Source of the DNA: an uncultured Clostridia bacterium
Lineage (GTDB): Bacteria > Bacillota > Dehalobacteriia > UBA4068
Direction of reading: 5' to 3'
Assembly: GCA_944390945.1 (NCBI GenBank)
Contig: CALXRV010000048.1
Coordinates: forward strand, 1 to 51,059
DNA: 51,059 bases
Below the pieces are notes generated by a model that saw only the letters and a list, made by a program, of their open reading frames with translations, made no database searches and had not been told where the DNA came from. The position numbers and the translations under genes were made by a program. Positions 222-14,870 of the stretch are shown here, one piece after another; positions within the stretch are counted from its first letter, which is position 1; every line of letters starts with the position of its first letter.

Positions 222-2492
222 TCAGAACGGACGCAAAGATGTAGCCAGGCCGCGGAAAAAGCTCACGCCGTCGTGGAACCACTGCTCCATCTGATCCAGA
301 TAGCTGCCAAGATCAAGAAAACGCTGCAAGATGCTGCTCTCTTCCTCTTCCACCACCGCTGTCTCCGGCGCTGCAGGCGCAGCTACCGCCGCGGTCTGCA
401 GCACGAACTGCACTGCCTCGATCTGCGTATTCTGTGGCGAAACATAGCTTTTCAGCACAAAATCACGGCCGCCGTATTCATCCAATAATTCGCGGATCTT
501 TTCCTCCACCTGCGCATCCATATCGCTGGTCTCGCTGCGCAGCTCACCAGTACCATCCTTCAGTTCCTGCGTGCCGTCGCGCAGCTCACCAACGCCGCTC
601 AACAGCTCGCCAATACCGCTTAACAGCTGGCTGCTGCCGTCGCGCAGCGACCAAGCGCCATCCGTCAGCTCTCTGCTGCCCTCCAGCAGCGTCCAGACGC
701 CGCCGCTGAATTCCGCAGTACCATCTGCCAATTCATCCGCGCCATCACGCAATTCATCCATGCCGTCTGCCAACTGCGTAGCGCCATCCGCCAGCTCATA
801 TACGCCGTCAGCATAGGTTTCCAGGCCTTCATGCAGCGTCAGATAGCCGACTGCCGTCTCCGCCAGCGCGGTTGCTGCACCGGAAAGGCCGGCAGCCGTC
901 GCCAAGCCCTCAAGCGCAGTTTGGTAGCCGGAGAGCAGGGCATCAGCCTCGGTTTGCGCAGCCGCCGCCTGCTCCGCCCAAGCGGCCGCAGCCGTCTCGG
1001 CCTGCGCGGCAGCCTGCTCCGCTGTCTCCGCAGTCTCCTGGGCTGCCGCATAGGCGCCTTCTGCCTGGCCCCCCAGCTGACAGGCTGCAGTCAATTCACC
1101 AAGCACGATCATACCCGCTGCATAAGCCTGTTCTGCCTGCGCCACGCCGGCAGCCGCTGCCTCCGCCTGCGCAGCCAGCGCATCCGCCGCCTGCCAGGCT
1201 GTGTCCGCTTGCGCCCGCGCGCTCTCTGCCGTGGCGGCGGCGGTCTCCGCTGCTCCGGCAAGACCGGCAGCAGACCCCAACGCGGTGAGGTACTGCGTCA
1301 TCACCGTCTGCAGCTCCTGCTCAGCTGCGGCTACCGCTGCTGCGGCTGCCTCGGTATCCGCCTGCGCGGCTAAAGTTTGATAAAACTGCCATGAACCGTC
1401 TACCAGCAGATCGGTGCCGTCTGCCAGCTCCTCTGTACCATCTGCCAACCGCCATACGGCGTCGCTCACTTCCGCAATGCCGCCAGCCAGCTCATCCGCG
1501 CCGCCGGAAAGTTCGTCCGCACCACCCGCCAGCTCCCCTACGCCGTCTTCCAGATCCTGCAGACCGTCGCCGAACTGCGCCATACCGTCATCCAGCTCAG
1601 CAGCGCCATCCTCCAGTTCGCCAACGCCATCCGCCAGCTCCACCACGCCGTCGTGCAATTCAAGCACGCCATCATCCAGCTGCACGATACCATCCTGCAA
1701 CTGGGAAAGATCCTCGGTCAGCGCGCCGGTATCCAGATCGTCCAGATCAAAAGAAAGGGGAATGCCGGCAAACTGAATGCTAGGCAGCGAAAAATCGCTG
1801 ACCTGCGCGGAAAAATCAAGTGTTGTCTCGCGGTCGGCAAAAACAATATAGGAGACCGTCTTGCTGCTGCCTTCACTGGCGATGGTCCCGCCCTGCGCCT
1901 CGATCTCCCGCGCCTGCGCACTATCGACCGTCAACGAAATCTGCAGCGCATAGTTTTCAAAAAAGACCGGATCCACACGGCTGTCCACATTTTCCCGGAT
2001 GGTGATCCTGAGCTGCAGCAAACCATTGGCCGCACACAATTCCCCGGCCGGCACCGTTTTGCCATCCAGGCTGGCGCTGATCTCGATCTGCCAGGGCAGC
2101 GCAGCAGCGCCCAGTTCACCCTGATAGTAGAAATCGCCCGCTTCCACTTCTGCCGTGATACAGCCGTCTTCCTGCTGTAATGCGGCCAAAGAGGTCAGGT
2201 TGGCCACACGCTGATAATCGCCATAGTCCAAAATCGTACCGGCCTGCTCCAGATGAAAGCCGTTGATCACCGTCACGCTCTGTACGCTGCCCTCTGGCGT
2301 CAGCGTGGCATAGACGACCTCTTCTTTCGGCGTATTCGCGGCCACAGCTTCCTCCGCTGCGCTTGCGTTCTCCGCCACATCTGCTTCTCCTGTCGCTTCC
2401 GCTGTTGACAGCGCAGCTGCCGCAGCTGCCTGGGGGAAAGCCGTCGCGGCCAGCAGCAGCGGAATGAGCAACAAAGCGATCCATCGTTTCAT
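222..2492 (-). CDS. secreted heptad-repeat protein (YhgE/Pip-like) of an MMPL export operon
   Basis: The product has 756 residues. I chose the ATG at 2492 because it follows GAGAGGTG and opens a clear Sec signal peptide (MKRWIALLLIPLLL...) with a likely AAA cleavage region; the longer frame upstream lacks these. After a beta-rich N-terminal domain (about 45-260) come two long arrays of 7-residue repeats of the form L.DG..E (about 265-385 and 590-690). They are separated by an alanine- and glutamine-rich coiled-coil insertion (about 390-585). Such DG heptads are typical of YhgE/Pip-type proteins that accompany MMPL transporters. No C-terminal membrane anchor is visible, unlike classical YhgE. 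It lies 34 nt behind the MMPL gene and is probably the last gene of the operon. A periplasmic or cell-wall-spanning partner of the exporter is inferred, not shown. Confidence 0.75.
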   Translation of the reverse strand: MKRWIALLLIPLLLAATAFPQAAAAAALSTAEATGEADVAENASAAEEAVAANTPKEEVVYATLTPEGSVQSVTVINGFHLEQAGTILDYGDYQRVANLTSLAALQQEDGCITAEVEAGDFYYQGELGAAALPWQIEISASLDGKTVPAGELCAANGLLQLRITIRENVDSRVDPVFFENYALQISLTVDSAQAREIEAQGGTIASEGSSKTVSYIVFADRETTLDFSAQVSDFSLPSIQFAGIPLSFDLDDLDTGALTEDLSQLQDGIVQLDDGVLELHDGVVELADGVGELEDGAAELDDGMAQFGDGLQDLEDGVGELAGGADELSGGADELAGGIAEVSDAVWRLADGTEELADGTDLLVDGSWQFYQTLAAQADTEAAAAAVAAAEQELQTVMTQYLTALGSAAGLAGAAETAAATAESARAQADTAWQAADALAAQAEAAAAGVAQAEQAYAAGMIVLGELTAACQLGGQAEGAYAAAQETAETAEQAAAQAETAAAAWAEQAAAAQTEADALLSGYQTALEGLATAAGLSGAATALAETAVGYLTLHEGLETYADGVYELADGATQLADGMDELRDGADELADGTAEFSGGVWTLLEGSRELTDGAWSLRDGSSQLLSGIGELLSGVGELRDGTQELKDGTGELRSETSDMDAQVEEKIRELLDEYGGRDFVLKSYVSPQNTQIEAVQFVLQTAAVAAPAAPETAVVEEEESSILQRFLDLGSYLDQMEQWFHDGVSFFRGLATSLRPF

Positions 2493-2526
2493 CAAAAACA
2501 CCTCTCGTCTGTCACTTTCTTTCCCG

Positions 2527-4689
2527 TCATCCTTGATCAGATTCCAAACCCGGGCCGCCGGGCGGCAAGCCCCTGCGCGCAGCATGCCCTGCCCGCCGTC
2601 TATGGCCTGCCCTTAGCCTGCGCTCGCGCGCTGGGATGCCGCTACGCAGGCTCAGCCAGCGAATCAGCGTATCGCATAGCGTAAACAGGGCAGGCAATGC
2701 CAGCAGCACCAGCCCCATCGAAAGCAGGGCGCCGCGGCCGATCAGCAAACCGATGGTCGAGATCGCGCCCATGCTCGAAAGCTCGGCTTCCGCAAAACCA
2801 GCCACTGCCAGGATCAGGCCGGAGGTGATGACGGAAAGCCCCGCGCGGTGCACCGCTTCCGCCGCAGCCTGCCGCGGCTGCAGGCTGGCGCGCGCCTCGA
2901 CATAGCGGCTGGCCAGCAGGATGGCATAATCGATCGTCGCCCCCAGCTGCAGCGAAGAAACGACGAGATAACCGATGAACACCAGCGGCTGGCCAAGAAA
3001 ATACGGCACCGCCATATTGATGTAGACCGCACTCTGAATGACGGCGATCAGCAAAACCGGCATGATCAGGCTGCGGAAAGTAAGAAAGATGATCACCGCT
3101 ACAGCGCCCATCGAAAGCCCCATTATCAGCCGCAGATCCGCCTGTACGCTGTCGCGAATATCCACGATCGAGACCGCTTTGCCCACCAGATAATATTCCG
3201 CATAATAATTCGCCGTCTGTTCTTTAATGAATTCCACGCAATCATACATCGCTGCGCTTTCCTCTATCGTATTGACGTTGAGGATAAAGCGCCCCCAGCC
3301 GTCGGCGACAAAATTTTCCAGTACGCTTTCCGGCAACATGCTGCGTGGAATCGTGGGATCAACCAGGGTGACCAGGGCCTGTATGCTATCGATATACGGG
3401 CTTTCCGCCAGGGCATCGGCCAGTGCTTTTTCCGCCGCCACATCGCCATCCGGTACCATCAGCACCACCTGGTCGTTAAGCGCAAAATGCTCGCCGATGC
3501 GGGCGCGTTCCGCCGCGATTTGCCCCGAACTGCTGCTGCCAGAGCTATCGCCATAAAGGAAATCCGTATTCAGCTGCCCAAAATAGCAAGGCACCACGAT
3601 CAACAACATCAAGATCAGAAACAGATAGCGCGGCGCCGTCAGCCAGCGTCCCATGCGCGCGCTGACATGCAACAGGGTACGGTGCCGGCTGCGCTCCACC
3701 AGACGATGGCAGCGGTAAAGCAAAGGCGGCAGGAAGAGCAGCACGGAAAGAAAGCTGAGCAGCACGCCTTTGGCCAGCACCAAGCCGATATCGCGACCAA
3801 TGCCATACTGCATGAAAGCAAGCGCGCCAAAACCCGCTACCGTCGTCATTGCCGAAGAGGCAATCGCCGGGAAGGTCTTACGCGTGGCCTCGATCACCGC
3901 GCTGCGCAGATCATGGCCAGCCGCACGTTCTTCTTCAAAACGATGCGTGAGAAACAACGAATAATCCATCGATACGGCAAGCTGAATCGCAGCGCCCATC
4001 GAGAAAATGATAAAGCTGACGCTATCAAACAATATGTTGGTGCCCATATTGATGACAACGGCAATGCAAATCACAAAAATATAGAGCAGCGGCTCAAACC
4101 AGGAAGTGGAGATCAAAACCAGGATCAGCAGGCATGCCGGCACAATCACCAGCATGATGTTAACGAATTCCGCCATCACCTGGCTGCGCGTATTGCGGCT
4201 CTCCTCCGCCGTGCCATAAAGGGCAGGGTTGTATTCCGCCGCCAGCTCGCGTGCAGCAACCAGGGCGTCGCCGGTGCGCAACGAATAATCATCTTCTGCA
4301 AAGTTGAGCGTATAAAGCGCGCAGCCATCCTGATAATAACTTTCCTGCAGCGTGGCGTCGATCTGCGAAAGCGGCTGATTGAGATCCGCCACATCATCCA
4401 ACCACATCACGCTGGATATCCCGTCGATCTGTTCCAGCTGTTGCTTGAGCACGAGCGCCTCATTGATCGCAATATCCTCTGCCATCAGCAATGCAAAGCC
4501 CTCATAGCCAAAGGTATCCTGCAGCAGTTCCAGCGCTTGCCGGCTGCCGGATTCCGGCGGCAGGTATTCCGCCAGATCATAGTTGATGTTGACAAAAGGG
4601 ATCAGACATGCGCTGAGCAAAGCGATCAGCAAGATAGTCCAGATCGTGCCGCGCCGGTGATCAAGCAAAAAAGCGGTCAATTTTCTCAT
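2527..4689 (-). CDS. MMPL/RND-family membrane exporter
   Basis: The product has 720 residues. The layout is two copies of one transmembrane helix, a large extracytoplasmic loop and five helices: TM1 at about 10-32, loop to about 165, TM2-6 to about 340, TM7 at about 355-375, loop to about 510, TM8-12 to about 685. This is the RND fold of MMPL proteins, which export lipids, hydrophobic compounds or drugs using the proton gradient. The ATG at 4689 follows GGAGG and overlaps the tetR stop as ATGA, so translation is coupled. The last 30 or so residues are arginine- and glycine-rich and probably cytoplasmic. The substrate is unknown; control by the TetR protein suggests induction by the compound exported. 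Confidence 0.9.
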   Translation of the reverse strand: MRKLTAFLLDHRRGTIWTILLIALLSACLIPFVNINYDLAEYLPPESGSRQALELLQDTFGYEGFALLMAEDIAINEALVLKQQLEQIDGISSVMWLDDVADLNQPLSQIDATLQESYYQDGCALYTLNFAEDDYSLRTGDALVAARELAAEYNPALYGTAEESRNTRSQVMAEFVNIMLVIVPACLLILVLISTSWFEPLLYIFVICIAVVINMGTNILFDSVSFIIFSMGAAIQLAVSMDYSLFLTHRFEEERAAGHDLRSAVIEATRKTFPAIASSAMTTVAGFGALAFMQYGIGRDIGLVLAKGVLLSFLSVLLFLPPLLYRCHRLVERSRHRTLLHVSARMGRWLTAPRYLFLILMLLIVVPCYFGQLNTDFLYGDSSGSSSSGQIAAERARIGEHFALNDQVVLMVPDGDVAAEKALADALAESPYIDSIQALVTLVDPTIPRSMLPESVLENFVADGWGRFILNVNTIEESAAMYDCVEFIKEQTANYYAEYYLVGKAVSIVDIRDSVQADLRLIMGLSMGAVAVIIFLTFRSLIMPVLLIAVIQSAVYINMAVPYFLGQPLVFIGYLVVSSLQLGATIDYAILLASRYVEARASLQPRQAAAEAVHRAGLSVITSGLILAVAGFAEAELSSMGAISTIGLLIGRGALLSMGLVLLALPALFTLCDTLIRWLSLRSGIPARERRLRAGHRRRAGHAARRGLPPGGPGLESDQG

Positions 4690-5291
4690 GCCATCGATAC
4701 CTCCGATGAAAACAGGCGGCACAGGTATTCGCTCACCATCGCGGTGAGCGCGGTTTCCTCTTCCGGTGCGTCAAGCAGGATCACGCACAACCCTTCGATC
4801 ACTGCCGTTGCCCAAGCATGTGCCAGCAGATCGGCATCAATTTCCCCACTGCAGCTGGTCAACAGATAATCACGGATGCGGCGCGCTGCAGTTTCGATAA
4901 TCACATCCTTGCAGCCGGCAAAGGGCGAGCCTTCACTGCCTCGCAATAGAATAAAAAATTCGTTGCGGTGGGCAAGAAAGATATGGATTACCTCTGTCAC
5001 AATGGCCTGTAATACCAGCGGGGAGGCAGCGCGGCAGCAAATCAGGCGCGAGATTTCACTTCCGGCCGGAAATTCCAGGCGGCAAAGCGCTTCCGCCTGC
5101 GCCGCAACCGGTGCGACCACGGCGGTAAAAAGCTGCTCCTTGCTGGTGAAATAGGCATAAATATTGCCCGGCGTAATCCCCGCCCGCTTGGCGATTGCAC
5201 GCATGCTGGCATGTTTATAACCATGCGCGGCAAATTCATATGCAGCTGCTGCCAGGATTGCTTCCTGGACATCTTTTTTTTGTACTTGCAT
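4686..5291 (-). CDS. TetR/AcrR-family transcriptional regulator
   Basis: The product has 201 residues, normal for the family. The N-terminal helix-turn-helix is clear at about residues 30-56 (MRAIAKRAGITPGNIYAYF followed by SKEQLF). The C-terminal ligand-binding half is divergent, as usual. It is the first gene of an operon with the MMPL exporter and the repeat protein. A perfect inverted repeat abuts its start codon and lies downstream of a consensus promoter, so autorepression with release by an exported ligand is the likely circuit. The Shine-Dalgarno element (GGATG) lies inside that repeat, so bound repressor would cover it in the DNA. Confidence 0.93.
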   Translation of the reverse strand: MQVQKKDVQEAILAAAAYEFAAHGYKHASMRAIAKRAGITPGNIYAYFTSKEQLFTAVVAPVAAQAEALCRLEFPAGSEISRLICCRAASPLVLQAIVTEVIHIFLAHRNEFFILLRGSEGSPFAGCKDVIIETAARRIRDYLLTSCSGEIDADLLAHAWATAVIEGLCVILLDAPEEETALTAMVSEYLCRLFSSEVSMA

Positions 5292-5749: not shown

Positions 5750-6616
5750 TCAGCGGATCTGAACGGGGAAGCGGCCATGTTCCCAGAGATAGCAGGTCAA
5801 CGTGACGGAAAGCAAATCCGCGCTGCCGCCAGGACTGAGCTGATGCGCACGGCAAAAGCTATCCAACTGCTGATAAGCATTGCGCCCCGCCGCGCTGAAC
5901 ACGCTGCCCTGAGCAAGGACATCCGCCGCCTTTTCTTGCAGCGTCTGCAGGCTCTGCAGTCCGCCGCGCCAGAGCACGGTCGTATCCTCTACACTGCAAA
6001 TCAGGTGCAATAACGTATGCTGCACAGCCTCGGAAAGCGTAACGCCGCGCGCAAACGCTTCCTGCAGCGCCGGCAGCCCACGCTGCGCTACATTCGGCAG
6101 CCCACTTTCCACCTCACCGCGAATACCGGTTGCCCCATAAAGGCGGTAAAGCTTTTCGCCGGCCGTATGCGGTTCCGCCTGTCCGGCCAGCTCTCTTGCG
6201 ACCAGACCAGCGGCCGCGCTGCGTGCGGCGGCAAACAAAGGCGTGCAACGGATCTCCTCCTGCTCCCGCCACAGGCGGCCGGCCAACACGGCCAGCAGCC
6301 CCATCACAAACACAATACCGCGCTGCGTATTCACGCCACCGGTGGCGGCGAACATCTGCTGCTCTGCCTCCGCGCCGATCGGACGGATCGCCGCCAGCAG
6401 ATCCGGCAAAGCGCTCGCATCCGTGCGGCCCAAAGAAACCAGGCGGTAAAAATAAGGGAACAATGCCGTCGTGCTGCTCATAAAAGTCAGGATGCTCATA
6501 TCCTGATGGCTGCCGTTACTGCCATAACAGACAAGCCCCGGTTTGCCGGCCGTCGCCACTTCCAGTAAAAGCCCCTGTATGATCGGCTCTGTCAACCGCC
6601 AGCTGATCGCATCCAC
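5750..6616 (-). CDS. madG: triphosphoribosyl-dephospho-CoA synthase (CitG/MdcB family)
   Basis: This enzyme makes 2'-(5-triphosphoribosyl)-3'-dephospho-CoA from ATP and dephospho-CoA, the precursor of the prosthetic group carried by the malonate decarboxylase acyl carrier protein. The family signature [19 protein letters not shown] followed by QDM is present near the N-terminus, with the conserved [12 protein letters not shown] motif further on. I chose the GTG at 6616 because it follows GGAGGAACTGCT; an ATG at 6712 would overlap madF and adds a Cys/Arg-rich stretch with no family likeness. The result is 288 residues, a normal size. It is the last gene of the operon and works with MadK upstream. 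The name follows the Malonomonas system and corresponds to MdcB. Confidence 0.88.
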
Positions 6617-6698
6617 AGCAGTTCCTCCATACCGCTCCGGCCCAAGGCGGAAACATCCTCGGCAATGCGCGCAGATGCCCGCCGGTTTAGGGCAGGCA

Positions 6699-6908
6699 TT
6701 ATTCCACAACAAAGATCACGTCGCCGGCGCGCAGACGGTCGCCGACGGCAAAACGGATCTCCTTGACCACGCCATCCGTCGGGCAAGGAATCTTCTGCTG
6801 CATCTTCATCGCTTCCATCACGCCGAGCACATCTTTCGTCTTGACCGTATCCCCTACCTGCACATGGATCTCCATCAGTTTACCCGGGACTCTGCTTTTA
6901 ATTTCCAT
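6699..6908 (-). CDS. madF: biotin carrier protein of malonate decarboxylase
   Basis: A 69-residue single biotinyl domain with the canonical EAMKM motif; the biotin acceptor is Lys35. The ATG at 6908 follows AGGAGG. An upstream in-frame ATG at 6941 overlaps the madK stop as ATGA, but its Shine-Dalgarno is too close. Biotin on this protein accepts the carboxyl group of malonate from the MadCD carboxyltransferase and delivers it to membrane-bound MadB. Most biotin carriers have a longer N-terminal linker; this one is a bare domain. It should be biotinylated by the ligase encoded at 14907-15896. Confidence 0.93.
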
Positions 6909-6937
6909 TTTTCTTTCCTCCTTGATCATCTTTTTTA

Positions 6938-7633
6938 TCATCCTTCTTTATTTTCCATGATGACGGCCTCTGCCCTTTCCAGCGACCGCACATCCGTAAA
7001 GCCCTTGGCCAATAGATAATGGCTGTCAGAAAAGAACTCCTTCAGCTTAACGCCATAGCCGCCGCACAAAGCCAGCTCTGCATCAATCCGAATACCAGAT
7101 GCCGCTTCCAGACGGCAAAGCCGCGCATAGAATGCCGGCAAGGTAGTTTGCGCCTGATAACGCACGATCAAATCAAGATCCGAATCCGCATGACAATAGG
7201 GCAATCCGGTCGCCAGCTCCAATGCGAGCGAACCATAGACCCCGCAGGGAATCCCCAGTTCCTCACCAACTGCAAGCACTGCGCTAAGCAGACGGTAAAG
7301 CGCAGATTCCCTTCGCGTTTTATCCGGCGGTAACAATGCCGCCTGATAAGGCGTCAACCGCGCTCCGGCAGCCGCAACCGGAATCGTCGCCGCCATGCGC
7401 AGACGGCGGCCATCCTGCCGGTAAGGTGCGGAAAGGCCGATCTGCAGCTGCCCGGGCAACGCGTTTTCCTGCCGGCGTACAATGCCCGGCACAAAAACAC
7501 CATCATAACCGCACAGGACAAGCTTTTTCAGCTCATTCTGCGGCCAATTCGCCGCGCAGGCCGGTAGCGCCTGCCAGATCTGCTGCCGCGCCGGCGTGGC
7601 AATGGCGATCAAATCATGCCGCTGCACAAACAT
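6938..7633 (-). CDS. madK: phosphoribosyl-dephospho-CoA transferase (MdcG family)
   Basis: The 231-residue product transfers the phosphoribosyl-dephospho-CoA group from the MadG product to the acyl carrier subunit MadE. Family motifs are RHDL at the N-terminus, GIVRR, and the nucleotidyltransferase signature VYGSLALELATGLPYCHADS followed by DLDL, whose aspartates should bind metal. The ATG at 7633 follows GAGGAGG. It sits between madH and madF, as in the Malonomonas order, and overlaps the upstream edge of madF by a few bases if the longer madF start is used. Confidence 0.9.
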   Translation of the reverse strand: MFVQRHDLIAIATPARQQIWQALPACAANWPQNELKKLVLCGYDGVFVPGIVRRQENALPGQLQIGLSAPYRQDGRRLRMAATIPVAAAGARLTPYQAALLPPDKTRRESALYRLLSAVLAVGEELGIPCGVYGSLALELATGLPYCHADSDLDLIVRYQAQTTLPAFYARLCRLEAASGIRIDAELALCGGYGVKLKEFFSDSHYLLAKGFTDVRSLERAEAVIMENKEG

Positions 7634-7645
7634 TGCGCCGCCTCC

Positions 7646-8749
7646 TCACTCCTGTTTCAGCCACAGCGGGTCATTTTTCGCCTGGCTTTGATACTGCTGC
7701 TGCGCTTCCAGCATGCGCTGAAACAACCGCGTCTGCCGCTCACCGCGCAAAATCAAGCCCACGCCTTCATCCGGCCAGGCGGGGCGCAGCTCCAGAACAT
7801 TTTCCAATGCTGCAGTCTGCACATTCGGCGCCACCCTTACCACGCGCCCTTTGATCCGCAAAATACTGCGCGCCGTGCGTGCGGCGGTCACCGCGGAATG
7901 CGCAGTGCAGGCATGGATGATCAGCTCGTATTCTGGTTGGCTCCGCCGCCGCGCATAGGTGATCACCGGGCCTGCTGGATTGAGCATATGCCCGCTGGCC
8001 AGGCGGGGGAAGCTGTCGCCGGTTGGTAAACCGCCAACCACCAGCTGCTGCCAGTCCTGCTGCTGCGCCTCCGGCAGCAGGCAAATATCTTCTCGCAGCG
8101 GAACGCCATCCAAGGTCAGCCAACCAAATTCCTGACAGCCATACAGATCATGCAGTGTCGCGCCCAGCGACTGCGCCAGCTCCGGCAGTGCCGGATCAAG
8201 CGGCGTACCGCAGGCGACCAAAACCATTTCCCGGGGCAGCAATGACCGGATCCCCAGACGCAGCGCCTCTTGCAACGCAGCGCGCAGGAAGCTGGATTCA
8301 CCAACCACCAACCGCAGCTGCCGCTGACAAAGCTCCACCAGAAACGCATCCCGGCTTGATCTGGGCAAAAAGCGCGGCTGTACGCCCAGCTTGGCCAGAG
8401 CCTGCGGTGTAAAAACATTGATCAACGGCGGATAGCAGACCAGCATTTCCTCACCCTGCCGTGCGCCGGCAGCAGATAAGGCCAGCTCGCCAGCTGCCAC
8501 CCGTTCCGGCAGTTCTGCATGCGTTATGCCGACGATATTCTGAAAGCTGCTGCTGCCGGTGGTGAAGGTCAGATAGGCCAGGTTAAGCGGCGTATGCACT
8601 TCTTCGATCACATGTGCGCTCGTCGGTCCGTCGATCCGCTTATCCGCCAGCGTGCGCCGCGGCATATCTGCCAGGGTCGGCGCATCGGCGGCCAGCGCCG
8701 TCAAGGCGGCCATATCCGCCAACAGCGCCAGCATCTCCTCGCGCGTCAT
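7646..8749 (-). CDS. madH: acetate:[acyl-carrier-protein] ligase, MadH-like
   Basis: A 367-residue protein of the adenylate-forming superfamily. In the Malonomonas system MadH acetylates the thiol of the decarboxylase carrier protein with ATP and acetate, which starts the catalytic cycle. The phosphate-binding loop is a divergent TTGSSSFQN instead of the usual TSGSTGxPK; further motifs are DLYGCQEFG (adenine/acyl site) and a C-terminal IKGR. The ATG at 8749 follows GGAGGAGG; a GTG at 8779 overlaps the madD stop and is less likely. The protein is shorter than normal acyl-CoA synthetases, as expected for MadH. Position between madD and madK supports the call. Confidence 0.8.
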   Translation of the reverse strand: MTREEMLALLADMAALTALAADAPTLADMPRRTLADKRIDGPTSAHVIEEVHTPLNLAYLTFTTGSSSFQNIVGITHAELPERVAAGELALSAAGARQGEEMLVCYPPLINVFTPQALAKLGVQPRFLPRSSRDAFLVELCQRQLRLVVGESSFLRAALQEALRLGIRSLLPREMVLVACGTPLDPALPELAQSLGATLHDLYGCQEFGWLTLDGVPLREDICLLPEAQQQDWQQLVVGGLPTGDSFPRLASGHMLNPAGPVITYARRRSQPEYELIIHACTAHSAVTAARTARSILRIKGRVVRVAPNVQTAALENVLELRPAWPDEGVGLILRGERQTRLFQRMLEAQQQYQSQAKNDPLWLKQE

Positions 8750-8775
8750 CGCGGCCTCCTCCGTTCCCCCGCCAC

Positions 8776-9654
8776 TCACAGATACTGCTCCGCTACAGCC
8801 GCGAATTCCGCCGTCATCCGTTCGATCACCGGCCGGCGATGCATCCTGCCGCCGCGCTGCTCTCCCAGTTTACCATGATACATCGGGCCGGTGCAGTCTG
8901 CCACCCCAGCTGCCTTGGCCGCTTCGATCTCCTGAATATGGCGGTTGATGGCAGAAGGCATATCCTCCAGCTCTGTCACCATTTCATCCACACCGCCGAG
9001 CCGATAAAAGAAATCCGGACCAGCGGCAAAGACCGGGTTGTTTTCCGCCAGCTGTTCCAGCCGTTCGATATCCAGCTTTGTAATGCGGGAAATACTGGTC
9101 AGCGGCATGACGTGGATCATGGTACCAAATTCCGGCGAAAGGGAAAGAATATGGTCTGCCTGCAGGCCATGGCAAAGAAAAGCGCCGCTGATCGCACGCC
9201 CGATCACCATCGCCACCACCGCATGACCGCAGCGGCGCGCCTCTGCCAGCGCCAGCTGATAGGCGCCGGTCGCCTTGTTCATGCCAAAGATCTCTTCGAT
9301 CTTGCCCGGCGCATTGCCGGGCGTATCCACAATCAACAGCAGCGGCCGTTTCTCACCCGCCGCCTTTTCCGCATCCTGCCGCATCACGGTATAAACGGTC
9401 TTTGCCATTTTATAGGCTTCTTCCATTCCGATCACGCCAAAATAGACGACCGGGAACCGCTCGTTAATCGCCTCTGCATCGTTGGCAATGACGACGATGT
9501 CACGTCCAGCCAGTTTTGCCTCGCCTACCACCGCGCCGGGGCCAAGCTCCGGCGAAAACTCGCTTTCCCCAATCCGGTTTTCCTGAAAGCTGCCGGGATC
9601 CACGATCATATCGATCGCTTCCCGGCCTCTGCCGATCATCATTTCAACTGTCAT
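8776..9654 (-). CDS. madD: malonate decarboxylase carboxyltransferase, gamma-type subunit
   Basis: A 292-residue crotonase-fold protein of the MdcE/MadD family, one half of the carboxyltransferase that moves CO2 from malonyl-ACP to biotin on MadF. The segments VVVIANDAEAIN, LLIVDTPGNAPGK and GRAISGAFLCHGLQADHI fit the family, with glycine-rich oxyanion-type turns. The start follows AAGGAGG by 5 nt. It is 10 nt from madC, its partner subunit, and is cytoplasmic. Confidence 0.92.
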   Translation of the reverse strand: MTVEMMIGRGREAIDMIVDPGSFQENRIGESEFSPELGPGAVVGEAKLAGRDIVVIANDAEAINERFPVVYFGVIGMEEAYKMAKTVYTVMRQDAEKAAGEKRPLLLIVDTPGNAPGKIEEIFGMNKATGAYQLALAEARRCGHAVVAMVIGRAISGAFLCHGLQADHILSLSPEFGTMIHVMPLTSISRITKLDIERLEQLAENNPVFAAGPDFFYRLGGVDEMVTELEDMPSAINRHIQEIEAAKAAGVADCTGPMYHGKLGEQRGGRMHRRPVIERMTAEFAAVAEQYL

Positions 9655-9664
9655 ACTGTCCTCC

Positions 9665-10618
9665 TTAGGGCCTGCGCCTTACCGTGCGGAGAAAGTCGGC
9701 TGTCGTCTGTTCCGGAATCGCCGCCGCATCCGCATTGCCGAAATACGCCCAGACATCACGCGCATCCTGCGGCTGTATCTCGCAGGAAAGCTCAGCCAGG
9801 GCCAGCTGCTCATCAACCAGAGCCTCGCTGCCGATACGGCGGCAGCGGGCAATCTCCGCATAGGGCTGCTGCAATGCACTGGCCAAGGCTGTGCGAAAGG
9901 CGCCGATGCTGTCCTCCACCAACTGGTTACAATCGCGCATGATATACTTATGCTTGCCGCCGGTAGTACGGTAGACCAGCGCTTTATCCGACGCATTGAA
10001 CTCTTCCCGCCCCATCTCTTGCTCGATCACTTCCGGTCCGGTCAAGCCCAGCCGGCCTAATTCGCTCATGATGATGAGATCTGTTGCCGCTGCCACAAAG
10101 CCCATGCCGCCAAAGCAGCCGATCTTACTGCCAATCAGGGCGATCACCGGGAATTTTCCCCGTGCATTCTGGATTTGGTCCATCACTTCGGCATGGGCAA
10201 GCAGGCCTGCATTTGCTTCATGCAGACGCACGCCGCCGGTCTCAAATGAAATCACGACTGCGGGCAGCCGCTCGGCCAAGCTATCCGCACCTTTTGCCGC
10301 CAGCTGCGCATAAGCTTGCTGCGCCAGCTGGAAAATGCCTACCATCTTGGCACCATGCACTTCGCCAACCGCGCCGCCGATGAACCGCCCCTCCTGCGAA
10401 ATAACAAATACCGGGTGTTTCCCGACCCGGCCCACGCCGGTGACAACGCCGTCATCGAACTCAATCGCCTCGCCCAGGGCCGGCAGATGCGGGCTACTCA
10501 TCCGATCCCGCGGACCGGCAAGCTCAGTAAAACTCGCCGCATCGACAATGCCGTTTGCCCGCTCGCGTGCAGTCGCCTCGTAAAAACTTTTTTGTTGTAA
10601 AGCCTGCCAGTCGGTCAT
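9665..10618 (-). CDS. madC: malonate decarboxylase carboxyltransferase, beta-type subunit
   Basis: A 317-residue carboxyltransferase-domain protein (MdcD/MadC family, related to acetyl-CoA carboxylase beta). Clear motifs are FISFETGG-like VVISFETGGVRLHEANAG, GSKIGCFGGMGFVAA and LTGPEVIEQEMGREEF. With MadD it forms the active site that decarboxylates malonyl-S-ACP and passes the carboxyl group to biotin. Its ATG overlaps the madE stop as ATGA, so the two are translationally coupled. Confidence 0.93.
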   Translation of the reverse strand: MTDWQALQQKSFYEATARERANGIVDAASFTELAGPRDRMSSPHLPALGEAIEFDDGVVTGVGRVGKHPVFVISQEGRFIGGAVGEVHGAKMVGIFQLAQQAYAQLAAKGADSLAERLPAVVISFETGGVRLHEANAGLLAHAEVMDQIQNARGKFPVIALIGSKIGCFGGMGFVAAATDLIIMSELGRLGLTGPEVIEQEMGREEFNASDKALVYRTTGGKHKYIMRDCNQLVEDSIGAFRTALASALQQPYAEIARCRRIGSEALVDEQLALAELSCEIQPQDARDVWAYFGNADAAAIPEQTTADFLRTVRRRP

Positions 10619-10941
10619 CCTTCCGCCTCCTTGCGCGCTTCCTTCAGCGCCTGCCGCAGCCGCATCAGCACAACGACTGGCGTCGCGTTATTATCATTGA
10701 TCTCCACGCTGACATCTGCCAGGTTCGTCTCGTTGACAAACCTGCCCAGCACCTGTTCCCATACGCGTTCAAAACCACGTACCGGTGTTACGACCTTAAA
10801 CCGGATTTCCCCGTCCAGCATACAACGTTCAAACATCACTTCCATATCGCCGGAACCAACCACTCCGGAATGCGACCATCCCAGCGGGAAAGGTTGCGGC
10901 TCTGTTGCCCGAAACGTATAATGCAGCTCCTGCAGTGCCAT
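10615..10941 (-). CDS. madE: malonate decarboxylase acyl carrier protein (delta subunit)
   Basis: The product has 108 residues, the expected size. The motif VVGSGDMEV holds Ser30, by family comparison the attachment site for the phosphoribosyl-dephospho-CoA group. This carrier holds the acetyl and malonyl thioesters during the cycle. The start follows GGAGGAG. It lies 27 nt after madA and overlaps madC. MadK, MadG and MadH, which build and acetylate its prosthetic group, are all encoded downstream. Confidence 0.92.
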   Translation of the reverse strand: MALQELHYTFRATEPQPFPLGWSHSGVVGSGDMEVMFERCMLDGEIRFKVVTPVRGFERVWEQVLGRFVNETNLADVSVEINDNNATPVVVLMRLRQALKEARKEAEG

Positions 10942-10968: not shown

Positions 10969-12639
10969 TTACCAGTTATGAAAACGTGCCGGTGGCGTAT
11001 ACAGTCCTTTCGACCAATGCACAAGCTCCCGCATATTTTTGGCTGCCAGCAAGCTGCGGTTGGCACGCGCCGGATCGATGCCAAGATCCTCCGCGGTTTT
11101 AAAAATCCCCCGTTTACGCAGGGCAGCTGTCTCCTGCGGATCCTCCTGCAAACCGATATCCGTATAGCCGGCCACGGCGCGGATCGCGGCCATACGCTCC
11201 TGCATATCCGCACATTTATGCAGATAAGCAATGCCCTCTTCCGTCACGATATGGGTCAGGTCGTCGCTGTAGATCATCACCGGTGGCAGCGCCAGGCCCG
11301 CATTCTTCGCCAGCTGCACCGCATCCAGTTCTTCGACAAAACCAGGTGTCATCTTTTCCCGGAATGTCTCCTGCAGCTGCACGACAAGCCGTTTGCCGCG
11401 CGGCAGACCGCCGGTCATCTCCTGCTGCAAGCCATATTCTTCCCCACAACGCAGCCAGCCGGACGTGGCATGACGACGCCCCCGGGCGTCGCAGCCCATA
11501 TTCGGCGCACCGCCAAAACCAGCGATGCGCGTCGCCGTAGCGGTGCTGCTGTTGCCGTAACGGTCGATCTGCAGCGTACCGCCGATAAAGATATCCAGCG
11601 CATAATGGCCGGCGGTCTGCGCCAGGCAACGGTTGGAACGCATCGTTCCATCCGGACCGATAAAGAAGACATCCGGTCTCGCTTTGACATATTCCTCCAT
11701 CCCCACCTCGCCGCCGAAACAGCAAACCGAGCGCACCCAGCCGGATTCGATCGCCGGGATCAGCGTCGGGTGCGGATTCAGCGCAAAATAAGAACAGATC
11801 TTGCCTTTCAGCCCCAGCTCTTCACCATAGGTGGGCAAGAGCAGCTCGATGGCTGCCGTATCAAAACCGATGCCATGATTCAGGCGCTGCAGGCCATATT
11901 CCGCATAAATACCCTTGATCACCATCATCGCACGCAGAATCTGCGCATCCGTGATCAGCGCCGGGTCGCGCGTGAATAATGGTTCGATATAAAACGGCTG
12001 CGGCGATTGAATAATAAAATCCACCCAGTCTGCCGGGATATCCACCCGTGGCACCTGATCGACGATCTCATTGACCTGCACGATCACAATGCCCTGTTTG
12101 AATTTGGTCGCCTCGACGATCACCGGCGTGTCTTCCGTATTGGCGCCGGTATAAAGATTGCCGTTCCGATCTGCGCTGTAGGCGGCAACCAGCGCCACGC
12201 GCGGCGTGAGGTCGATAAAATAGCGGCCATATAACTCCAGATAGGTATGGATAGCGCCGATCTCCAGCTTTCCTGCGCGCACATATTCCGCCAAGCGGCC
12301 CGCCTGCGGCCCGGAAAAAGAAAAATCCAGCTTCTTGGCAATCCCCTTATCAAACAAATCCAGATGACGATCAAGCGAAAGAACAGACTGTACCATGTGC
12401 AGATCATGCACCTGTGCCGGGTCAACCCGGCACAGGCATCCCGCGAGAAAATCCGCTTGCTTTTGATTATCGCCCTCCAGATTCACCTTATCTCCGGGGC
12501 GCAGCACAGCTTCCAGCAATTTCACCGCGTCTGCCGCCGCCACCTGCTTCCCCGCCTGCACATATGGCGCTGCCGCCGCCAGGCGGGCGCGGGTATCCTG
12601 CAGCAGGCTGTCCCAGGATACGCTCTCTTCTGTAATCAT
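10969..12639 (-). CDS. madA: malonate decarboxylase alpha subunit (acetyl-ACP:malonate ACP transferase)
   Basis: A 556-residue CoA-transferase-fold protein of the MdcA/MadA family. It swaps acetate for malonate on the carrier protein. Recognisable stretches are RPGDKVNLEGDNQKQADFL, FSFSGPQAGRLAEYV, RNGNLYTGANTEDTP, TLQIDRYGNSSTATATRIAG and GFGGAPNMGCDARGRRHAT. The ATG at 12639 follows AAGGAG; ten extra residues upstream are unlikely. The length matches the family. It follows the hutP-like gene by 56 nt. Confidence 0.95.
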   Translation of the reverse strand: MITEESVSWDSLLQDTRARLAAAAPYVQAGKQVAAADAVKLLEAVLRPGDKVNLEGDNQKQADFLAGCLCRVDPAQVHDLHMVQSVLSLDRHLDLFDKGIAKKLDFSFSGPQAGRLAEYVRAGKLEIGAIHTYLELYGRYFIDLTPRVALVAAYSADRNGNLYTGANTEDTPVIVEATKFKQGIVIVQVNEIVDQVPRVDIPADWVDFIIQSPQPFYIEPLFTRDPALITDAQILRAMMVIKGIYAEYGLQRLNHGIGFDTAAIELLLPTYGEELGLKGKICSYFALNPHPTLIPAIESGWVRSVCCFGGEVGMEEYVKARPDVFFIGPDGTMRSNRCLAQTAGHYALDIFIGGTLQIDRYGNSSTATATRIAGFGGAPNMGCDARGRRHATSGWLRCGEEYGLQQEMTGGLPRGKRLVVQLQETFREKMTPGFVEELDAVQLAKNAGLALPPVMIYSDDLTHIVTEEGIAYLHKCADMQERMAAIRAVAGYTDIGLQEDPQETAALRKRGIFKTAEDLGIDPARANRSLLAAKNMRELVHWSKGLYTPPARFHNW

Positions 12640-12695
12640 GGTCTTTTCTCCTTTCTGCAGGCAGTTCACCCTTTCCGCCTGCGCCAGCCGGCTGA

Positions 12696-13148
12696 TCAGG
12701 GCAAATGCATGACGCCCAGGCCGACCCGTTCATGAGAGGAAAAGGAGTGCAGGGAGGATTCGCCGAACATGGCGACCGCCACCCACTCCCGGTTGCATAC
12801 GATTGCGATCTTCACCGCCAGATTTGCCGTGGAAGTCTCGTTGACCAGCAGCCCGCGCTTGGCCTCTTCAGCTGCATGCAGCAGCGCATGGATGGTGCGG
12901 GCGTTTTTTTCGATCAGCCCGGCATTCAGCGCAGCACCGATCACGGCACGCATCGATTTTGCCTGAAAATCTCCGCTGCTGTTGCCACCGGTCTCGGTAA
13001 CCGCACAATGCAAGCCCAATCCGCCTAACGCGGACTTCAATGCTTCTTCCTCAGCCAGCGTACTGCTCAATGCGAGCAGCAACGCATGATAACCAAGTCC
13101 ACGCGCGCCCTCCAGCACCGGCATCACCCGCAGGGTAATGGTATCCAT
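12696..13148 (-). CDS. HutP-family protein, putative RNA-binding antiterminator of the mad operon
   Basis: The product has 150 residues, the size of HutP, the histidine- and Mg-dependent antiterminator of the Bacillus hut operon. The HALLHA segment with His87 and His91 and the C-terminal EWVAVAMFGE...SHERVGLGVMHL segment with His139 line up with the HALYHA and DWIAVSLYG...EHETFGVGINHI segments of Bacillus HutP as I recall them. The three histidines correspond to the Mg ligands His73, His77 and His138. The start follows AAGGGGG. It lies between madB and madA, where no HutP belongs in the classical cluster. The operon leader carries a terminator, which suggests local antitermination. The effector is unknown: malonate, histidine or another metabolite. 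Confidence 0.8.
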   Translation of the reverse strand: MDTITLRVMPVLEGARGLGYHALLLALSSTLAEEEALKSALGGLGLHCAVTETGGNSSGDFQAKSMRAVIGAALNAGLIEKNARTIHALLHAAEEAKRGLLVNETSTANLAVKIAIVCNREWVAVAMFGESSLHSFSSHERVGLGVMHLP

Positions 13149-13185: not shown

Positions 13186-14394
13186 TCAAGCGGCGAGAAA
13201 GATCGTAGCGATGAACACGCCGGCGGCGATCGCCGAGACGATCACGCCGCAGACATTCGCGCCCATCGCCACCGGCAGGATCATCGCAAAAGGATTTTCC
13301 TCTTCCGCTGCATGCTGCGCCAGCTTGGCCGTTGTCGGCACACAGGAAACGCCGGCCACACCGATGACAGGGTTGAATTGTTTTTTATTTTTCCAATAAA
13401 CGATCCAGCCGCCCAGCAGACCCCCGACCGCTGAAAAAGCAAGCGCGATAATGCCGAGCAGAAGGATTTTACCTACGACCGGATCAAAAATGGTGCCTGC
13501 CTCACAAAGTGTGCCCAATACCAGGCCAAGAAACAACGTGGAAAGGTAGGTGACGGCAGATTCCAACACTTCCTGATAGGGCAGGATCTCCGCCTCTTTG
13601 ATCGCCATACCGAGGAAAAAGGAAAGGATCAGCGGCGCAGCAACCGGTAACAGCAGGCAAAGCAAGGTGCAGATGGCCAGAATGAAGACAAATTTCGCTT
13701 TCTGCGAAACCTCCGGCACATAAGCCTCTACGTCAATGCCACGATATTTTTTCGGCACCAGCAATTTGATAATATAAGGATAGCAGGCATATGTCAAGCT
13801 CAGATAAAGGTAGGCGATAATCGATACCGGAACAAACAGCTCCGGCGCCAACATCAACGAGGTAAACAACACCATCGGCCCATCGGCGCCCCCGATCGTG
13901 GCGACAGAAGCAGCGGCAGCCGGTTCCATGCCGAACAGCTCAACACCGCAGACCAGGGCAACAAAAGTTCCCAGCTCAGCCAGAATGGCGATCAGGATGC
14001 ATGCCCAGGGCCGCGCCAGCAGAAAGCTGATCTCACTGCGTGCGCCGATGCCCATAAAGACCAGGCAGGCGATCAAGCCATTGCTGAAGGTCAGGTTATA
14101 GATCGGCTGCAAAAAATTAACCTGCATGATATCGACCAGTTGCTGTGGGTCAGAAACCAGCGGATCCAGGATAATCGTCCCCAGCTGGCCATCCCCCAAA
14201 AACAGCATTCCGGCATTGACGGCGATCATCCCAATGCCCATCGGTACCATGATCAACGGCTCCAGTTTTCCCCGAAAGCCAAAATAAGCCAGCGCAAAAC
14301 CCAGCAAGATCAGACAAAGGCGCGCGGCTGCCAGCAGCGGGTCGCTAAGAAAAAAGCTGCTGATGCCGGGAAACATCTCAATCCATATCTCCAT
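13186..14394 (-). CDS. madB: sodium-pumping carboxybiotin decarboxylase, MadB (OadB/GcdB family)
   Basis: A 402-residue polytopic membrane protein. It decarboxylates carboxybiotin on MadF and exports sodium ions, so malonate decarboxylation is converted into a sodium gradient. The family hallmark IGGADGPMVLFTS lies at about residues 165-177 and its aspartate is the expected sodium/proton ligand. PVIGVAGVSCVPTTAK and NPFAMILPVAMGANVCGVI mark the second conserved helix pair. About ten helices are visible and the length is typical of the family. The start is next to a run of GGAAGAGG. It lies 47 nt after the 43-residue membrane peptide gene. Confidence 0.95.
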   Translation of the reverse strand: MEIWIEMFPGISSFFLSDPLLAAARLCLILLGFALAYFGFRGKLEPLIMVPMGIGMIAVNAGMLFLGDGQLGTIILDPLVSDPQQLVDIMQVNFLQPIYNLTFSNGLIACLVFMGIGARSEISFLLARPWACILIAILAELGTFVALVCGVELFGMEPAAAASVATIGGADGPMVLFTSLMLAPELFVPVSIIAYLYLSLTYACYPYIIKLLVPKKYRGIDVEAYVPEVSQKAKFVFILAICTLLCLLLPVAAPLILSFFLGMAIKEAEILPYQEVLESAVTYLSTLFLGLVLGTLCEAGTIFDPVVGKILLLGIIALAFSAVGGLLGGWIVYWKNKKQFNPVIGVAGVSCVPTTAKLAQHAAEEENPFAMILPVAMGANVCGVIVSAIAAGVFIATIFLAA

Positions 14395-14441: not shown

Positions 14442-14573
14442 TCATGCATCAGAACTGCCATCCTGCCGCCCTCCACCCATCGTGCGGCTGATCCAAACGA
14501 TTACCGCCACGACCAGCAGCGAGATGATTGCGGTCAGGCCATAGGCAAGCAGTGCGTAAAGCGCGATATGCAT
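14442..14573 (-). CDS. 43-residue single-span membrane peptide, first gene of the mad operon
   Basis: This frame is too short for normal ORF calling but well supported. The ATG follows GGAGGTGAACCCAT, a near-perfect ribosome binding site. The peptide has one hydrophobic helix (about residues 4-29, ending VVAVIVWISR) and then a short polar Gly/Asp/Ser tail on the cytoplasmic side. The layout resembles the N-terminal half of OadG-type gamma subunits, small helix proteins that assemble biotin-dependent sodium pumps, but the Pro-rich tail and zinc-binding end of OadG are missing. It is 47 nt upstream of madB. A role as assembly or stability subunit of MadB is inferred. Confidence 0.72.
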   Translation of the reverse strand: MHIALYALLAYGLTAIISLLVVAVIVWISRTMGGGRQDGSSDA

Positions 14574-14602
14574 ATGGGTTCACCTCCATCCACACAGGCC
14601 AT

Positions 14603-14651
14603 AAAAAACAAAAAGAACAGGAGTTGAACAACTGCTCAAACTCTCTGTCCC
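14603..14651 (-). terminator. intrinsic terminator (attenuator) in the mad operon leader
   Basis: In the transcript GGGACAG pairs with CUGUUCU and GAGUU with AACUC, plus two more pairs below an 8-nt loop: about 14 bp with one bulged A and one bulged U. The U tract UUUUGUUUUUU follows at once (14603-14613). It lies about 185 nt downstream of the predicted start of transcription and only 30 nt before the first start codon, so unimpeded transcription would stop before the operon. This is the layout of an attenuator. The HutP-like protein is the obvious candidate to relieve it. Confidence 0.75.
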
Positions 14652-14795
14652 ACATAAACCAACAGCGTAAGCCAATCCACTGTAACAGAAGCCGGTTGAC
14701 CAAAACCAGCCCGTCCCAAAACGAAACTGCCGGGGCAGGAAAAGATGCGGCTTTCCGGCACAGATACCTGCCTGCAGCGGCCAGAAACAGGGGCG

Positions 14796-14835
14796 CTCTC
14801 ATTCGCTCATTCTCATCTTCCCTGCTCCCTCATCT
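14796..14835 (-). promoter_or_regulatory. NAG-triplet-rich 5' end of the mad leader, candidate RNA-binding site
   Basis: The first 40 nt of the predicted transcript are purine-rich and contain eight NAG triplets (GAG, GAG, CAG, AAG, GAG, GAG, GAG, GAG) at intervals of 2 to 8 nt. HutP is known to read NAG triplets in its RNA targets. Spacing is less regular than in the Bacillus hut site, so this is a suggestion only. Confidence 0.35.
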
Positions 14836-14841
14836 TAGATT

Positions 14842-14870
14842 ATCATAACGAATCCTCCCGCACTTGTCAA
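14842..14870 (-). promoter_or_regulatory. promoter of the mad operon
   Basis: TTGACA (14865-14870) and TATGAT (14842-14847) on the minus strand are 17 nt apart. The start of transcription would be near 14835, giving a leader of about 260 nt before the first gene. Confidence 0.82.

Follow-up and report, generated by a model that had tools for sequence, protein, structure and literature searches.

The Na+-type malonate decarboxylase operon of an uncultured Clostridia bacterium is very likely controlled at a conditional terminator in its leader by the HutP-family protein that its own third gene encodes, a reading for which there are no binding, expression or ligand data. The operon lies on the minus strand of a stretch of 51,059 nucleotides (the window) from an 85%-complete MAG. 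In B. subtilis, HutP acts on the hut operon as a histidine-sensing antiterminator that recognises NAG triplets of the leader RNA. We propose antitermination of the HutP type here, by a protein whose sensor pocket has changed and which probably responds to malonate, a ligand that is inferred. The mechanism class is thus known, while the target and the spacing of the RNA sites are new and the ligand is probably new as well. A sequence-only reading of this DNA had suggested transcription antitermination as a new mode of control; this is right for malonate operons, but the HutP mechanism class was already known. Its idea of antitermination is supported, although it overlooked both the HutP gene and the NAG arrays.

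The operon comprises 11 genes for a biotin-dependent malonate decarboxylase of the sodium-pump kind. The first (14573..14442) encodes a 43-aa protein with one hydrophobic span and no Pfam or NCBIfam match. Most of 17 named loci have this frame before madB at 33-61% identity (tblastn), as do further loci, and the protein is possibly a gamma-like small subunit of the sodium pump. It is followed by madB for the carboxybiotin decarboxylase subunit of Na+-transporting malonate decarboxylase (13186..14394; TIGR03136, 640 bits against a cut-off of 597), the gene for the HutP-family protein, our proposed antiterminator (12696..13148), and madA/mdcA for the alpha subunit (10969..12669; PF16957, Mal_decarbox_Al, 941 bits). 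The family search further assigned mdcC for the ACP (10615-10941), mdcD (9665-10618) and mdcE (8776-9654), and the remaining genes are a candidate AMP-binding-like ACP ligase (7646-8779), mdcG (6938-7633), a biotin carrier protein (6699-6941) and mdcB/citG (5750-6712), all on the minus strand. Downstream on the same strand (222-5291) lie an MMPL/RND-type transporter, a heptad-repeat protein and a TetR regulator (4686-5291).

Upstream of the operon we found a promoter, TTGACA-17-TATGAT (14870..14842, minus strand), which matches the consensus at 11/12 positions; a consensus scan gave three promoter-like sites in the 2.5-kb region against 1.0 expected. Transcription is inferred to start near 14835, giving a leader of about 234 nt. 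The leader ends in an intrinsic terminator, UUUUUGUUUUUU (14650..14603, minus strand), in which the hairpin GGACAGAGAGTTTGAGCAGTTGTTCAACTCCTGTTC (14650..14615) has 15 pairs and two 1-nt bulges and the T tract TTTTTGTTTTTT (14614..14603) follows directly. The hairpin core folds at -14.4 kcal/mol against -7.6 +- 2.1 in shuffles (z = -3.2, 0/200 shuffles); this fold ends one base before the stem end, and the full hairpin reaches -17.6. Folding of the whole 246-nt leader is ordinary (z = -0.69), so that the terminator alone is unusually structured. A simple terminator consensus scan found four sites against 3.7 expected and did not list this one, probably because the stem is bulged. About 29 nt past the T tract, and after the ribosome-binding site GGAGGTG (14587..14581), stands the first start codon, the ATG of the 43-aa frame at 14573. 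The sequence-only reading had named the promoter, the malonate decarboxylase operon downstream, a strong terminator about 30 nt before the start codon and a terminated RNA of about 230 nt. The first three are confirmed and the length, as deduced from the inferred start, agrees; the strand, minus for all of these elements, was missing from it.

The terminator is not peculiar to the window. Scanning 84,980 species genomes for MadB gave 17 loci. A terminator was present between promoter and first gene in all of 16 non-redundant leaders with HutP, compared with 0/7 upstream regions of madB without HutP, where the chance rate of such a call in shuffles is about 2%. Since the leader ends had been chosen by eye, we also ran the test on upstream stretches cut uniformly at up to 400 nt, and a terminator-like hairpin was seen in 19/19 HutP-bearing loci plus the divergent L077, and was absent in the HutP-less L070 and L082. 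In a few of these regions (e.g. L071, L076, L078) another hairpin scores better than the leader terminator, and leaders from related genera count only partly as independent cases. A terminator kept with HutP and absent without it should be a regulatory part. The earlier suggestion that the terminator is conditional is supported by this co-occurrence together with the HutP gene and the conserved NAG arrays, and the lack of a conserved terminator in related genomes, which had been named as a refutation, was not what we found. A covariation check of the stem, also suggested there, showed a G-C pair at the stem base exchanged for A-U in three related leaders (L083, L092, L094). Stems from different genera have diverged too far for alignment, and we therefore rely on the independent conservation of the terminator. 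The Yanshouia leader (L074:9590-9870) seemingly has two terminators in tandem, with GAG repeats ahead of each, and in Phascolarctobacterium (L076:3619-3748) a cobalamin riboswitch (48.9 bits) comes after the HutP-type terminator, as seemingly tandem RNA switches; L078 resembles the latter, with a cobalamin match below the cut-off.

The product of the third gene is a clear member of the HutP family. It matches Pfam HutP (PF09021) with 104.7 bits against a cut-off of 25 (E=5.5e-30), and a profile built from its orthologues finds no structures in the PDB other than those of HutP, with E about 3e-10. Its segments HALLH and SHERVGLG align with HALYH and EHETFGVG of 1vea. Three histidines, two in HxxxH and one in HE(R)xGxG, which we take to be the metal ligands in hut-type HutP, are kept in nearly all proteins of the malonate type (mad-type) and in other HutP-like proteins. 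The mad-type proteins have the motifs EEAK and HERxGLG in common, and their basic residues are conserved. Two segments of 4 and 8 residues found in hut-type HutP (1vea, 4ok9) are absent from them, and the tyrosine preceding HALYH is not conserved. The missing loops and the unconserved tyrosine suggest a ligand other than histidine, as far as alignment can tell; we infer that mad-type HutP has a different ligand, which it may also bind through metal. The gene context makes malonate the obvious and probable candidate, without demonstrating it. The AF2 monomer has a pLDDT of 85 and the order a-a-b-a-a-b-b-b, the oligomer being outside the model; a Foldseek search with this monomer returned no HutP in the top 50, and only weak matches resembling anti-sigma factors (E above 0.08). 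The possibility that hut genes are the true target was rejected, as no hutH was found in the own genome (85% complete) or in 8/12 other genomes, which makes a role in histidine use improbable for this protein. The own genome also has a second HutP paralogue (L065:9044-9562; G000:C62:19061-19441), which adjoins cytidylate kinase and lacks the HxxxH histidines, and therefore probably has another role.

We observed that the HutP gene co-occurs with malonate operons across phyla. It lies within or directly before the operon in 14 of the 17 named loci, with 32-61% identity, and in further genomes too; in L073 it is on another contig of the same genome. The HutP-bearing loci include Adlercreutzia (Actinomycetota), Pelosinus, Phascolarctobacterium, Lachnospiraceae, Yanshouia, Cuneatibacter and a MAG labelled Deltaproteobacteria. 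In the genomes compared, the family profile gives 185-240 bits for mad-type proteins versus 42-72 for other HutPs. Mad-type HutP was not found in more distant MadB genomes (49-57% identity). The divergent HutP locus mentioned above, L077 (32% identity), has the terminator but not the GAG-N5-GAG motif described below. In L083 (2727-2962; G194) the mad-type gene appears as two tblastn pieces in different frames, which is a broken gene or a sequencing error. A GAG-rich ribosome-binding region lies just upstream of the hutP start in L071, L076, L075 and L080 (e.g. GAGAGTGAGAGG); it might permit translational autoregulation, or may be merely a purine-rich Shine-Dalgarno region.

The RNA sites expected for a HutP protein are present in the leaders as NAG arrays with a period of 8 nt. 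In the window, predicted site I is the NAG-rich 5' end of the transcript, AAGATGAGGGAGCAGGGAAGATGAGAATGAGCGAATGAGAG (14797..14836, minus strand; GAGNNNNNGAG match), with its GAG-N5-GAG, GAGCGAATGAG, at 14808..14798. Predicted site II, GAGAGTTTGAG (14645..14635, minus strand; GAG-N5-GAG match), falls within the terminator's 5' arm, about 150 nt from site I. In the relatives its equivalents abut or overlap the terminator arm, and the clusters are separated by about 25 nt or more, the range over the malonate leaders being about 25-160 nt. In the 16 leaders together, GAG pairs at distance 8 number 26 against 2.4 +- 1.5 in dinucleotide-preserving shuffles (0/500), and 24 against 2.2 when the window is left out, while NAG triples at period 8 number 10 against 1.8 expected, e.g. 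CAG-N5-TAG-N5-GAG (L072), CAG-N5-AAG-N5-GAG (L066) and GAG-N5-GAG-N5-GAG (L067). The pairs are concentrated within 45 nt of the RNA start (13 in 720 nt) and at the terminator. Their density is 11.3 per kb in leaders versus 0.41 per kb in downstream sequence, and there is no pair in the 4.1 kb preceding the promoters or on the antisense strand. They were not found in the leaders of L083, L091 and L092, where NAG clusters are present. For the window alone, GAG-N5-GAG reaches just mild significance (2 against 0.25, P=0.03). The window leader has no perfect period-8 NAG triple, each cluster consisting of one perfect GAG-N5-GAG plus other NAGs. The 51 kb contain only nine GAG-N5-GAG on both strands, of which two are sites I and II. 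The NAG signal of the window is modest by itself and takes its weight from position and conservation.

The order of promoter, site I and terminator is common to the window and the other leaders. A constitutive terminator might instead merely dampen expression, with the promoter under an unlinked regulator; read-through data are lacking, and a TetR gene does lie downstream, next to the efflux-type genes. We nevertheless regard this as very improbable because the promoter, the NAG array and the terminator are conserved as a set, and this set is confined to loci with a HutP-like gene. Equally improbable is a riboswitch or T-box in the leader, with the HutP-like protein acting elsewhere. A leader bearing a terminator is the usual form of riboswitches, and that of L076 does contain one for cobalamin, but no Rfam family matched the leader of the window at gathering thresholds or at E up to 5, and the ordinary folding of the whole leader likewise gives no support. 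Leader lengths vary from 93 to 239 nt across the set, and the sequence between the NAG sites is not conserved, which also argues against a structured sensor RNA.

The arrays could instead be read by another protein such as TRAP, which recognises GAG and UAG triplets and was found in 3/13 genomes tested, or the HutP protein could promote termination. This deserves slightly less credence still, as PF02081 had no match in the own genome, with its incomplete assembly, or in 9/12 genomes with related operons, and the period-8 array goes with HutP genes, those of non-malonate operons included; protein bound at site II, on the 5' arm of the terminator, should block the hairpin rather than favour it. 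The weakest explanation, ribosome-mediated attenuation through a leader peptide, can point to a 5-codon frame (ATG AGA ATG AGC GAA TGA, about 14816-14799) with a Shine-Dalgarno-like sequence and a purine-rich stretch before it, but no leader peptide is conserved, 4/16 leaders have no ATG at all, many lack any start that combines a Shine-Dalgarno-like sequence with a complete frame, and the NAG array accounts better for the purine-rich stretch.

Control by the HutP-family protein, which we prefer, would work as follows. Without inducer, RNA polymerase would start near 14835 and halt in the T tract near 14603. The inferred inducer would most likely be malonate or a close metabolite, together with a divalent metal on the three conserved histidines. 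In its presence a HutP-like hexamer, itself an inference, may bind the NAG array at the 5' end of the RNA (site I) and the GAG-N5-GAG of site II; this binding is inferred. Because site II is on the 5' arm of the terminator, protein binding should prevent the hairpin: the bound arm could not pair, and transcription would read through into the operon, a direction of effect that is also inferred. The hutP gene stands behind the terminator in the window and most relatives, and upstream of it in L072 and L074. Where hutP is behind its own terminator, induction would be reinforced by an inferred positive feedback.

HutP-like genes are not confined to malonate operons. A HutP-profile search of 398 genomes of the phylum gave a second tier (L128-L149), mostly of 125-170 bits, away from malonate genes, in which the three metal-type histidines are kept as well. 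These genes precede CoA carboxyltransferases, OadB-like pumps, CoA-transferases, nifI1-nifI2, an ammonium transporter and permeases, as named by eye from the translations without a family search. The arrays and terminators are here in the gap after hutP (e.g. L130:1420-2095, L139, L145). In these gaps, picked without regard to sequence, period-8 NAG triples number 20 against 2.6 (0/500 shuffles), and 12 against 2.1 without the extreme L139, whose gap has the long array TAGAGTAATAGAGTAACAGAGTATTTAAGG. Six of 15 gaps pass a strict terminator test, compared with 3% in shuffles, and in most of the remaining ones inspection by eye shows a plain hairpin followed by a short T tract. We therefore think it rather likely that HutP is not a histidine speciality and that many operons (malonate, other CoA-linked decarboxylases, CoA-transferases, nitrogen fixation nifI, ammonium and amino-acid transport) are controlled by a large family of HutP-type antiterminators, which bind RNA and respond each to a small molecule or signal of its own. 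All would read the same RNA code, in which NAG recurs every 8 nt at the terminator of the leader. The recurrence of the arrangement in many distant bacteria points to a little-known but widely used kind of gene switch. If confirmed, it would provide an RNA-level switch for malonate use in gut and anaerobic bacteria, and would add a family of RNA-binding proteins gated by ligands, whose simple code could serve to predict ligands, targets and synthetic regulators.

The malonate operons of the mdc/mat type, typically biotin-independent mdc operons, are under LysR- or GntR-type control by DNA-binding proteins that act on the promoter. These systems also control malonate decarboxylase genes, but without a leader terminator or an RNA-binding protein; the conserved terminator, the HutP gene and the NAG arrays support antitermination over such control here. 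TRAP and the BglG/LicT-type antiterminators likewise exert protein control over a leader terminator, and TRAP also reads NAG repeats, but they belong to other protein families, and the own genome gave no TRAP match. In the leader of the window we recognised no RAT-type antiterminator hairpin; its site II is a NAG array that lies in the arm of the terminator. In the open-licence literature, subscription papers being outside our search, we found no HutP targets other than Bacillus hut. The hut leader has an N4 spacer between its NAG triplets, whereas N5 (period 8) is preferred in the malonate leaders. The two NAG clusters of hut are reported to be about 20 nt apart (PMC7430163), against about 25-160 nt in the malonate leaders. 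The malonate systems further differ from hut in serving malonate rather than histidine catabolism, in having hutP behind the terminator in most loci, and in a protein that lacks the two hut-type loops and in which the tyrosine before HALYH is not conserved. As in B. subtilis hut, on the other hand, a HutP-family protein that keeps the three metal-binding histidines in its sequence is encoded in the operon under its proposed control, and the leader combines an intrinsic terminator with two NAG clusters, one of them at the terminator.
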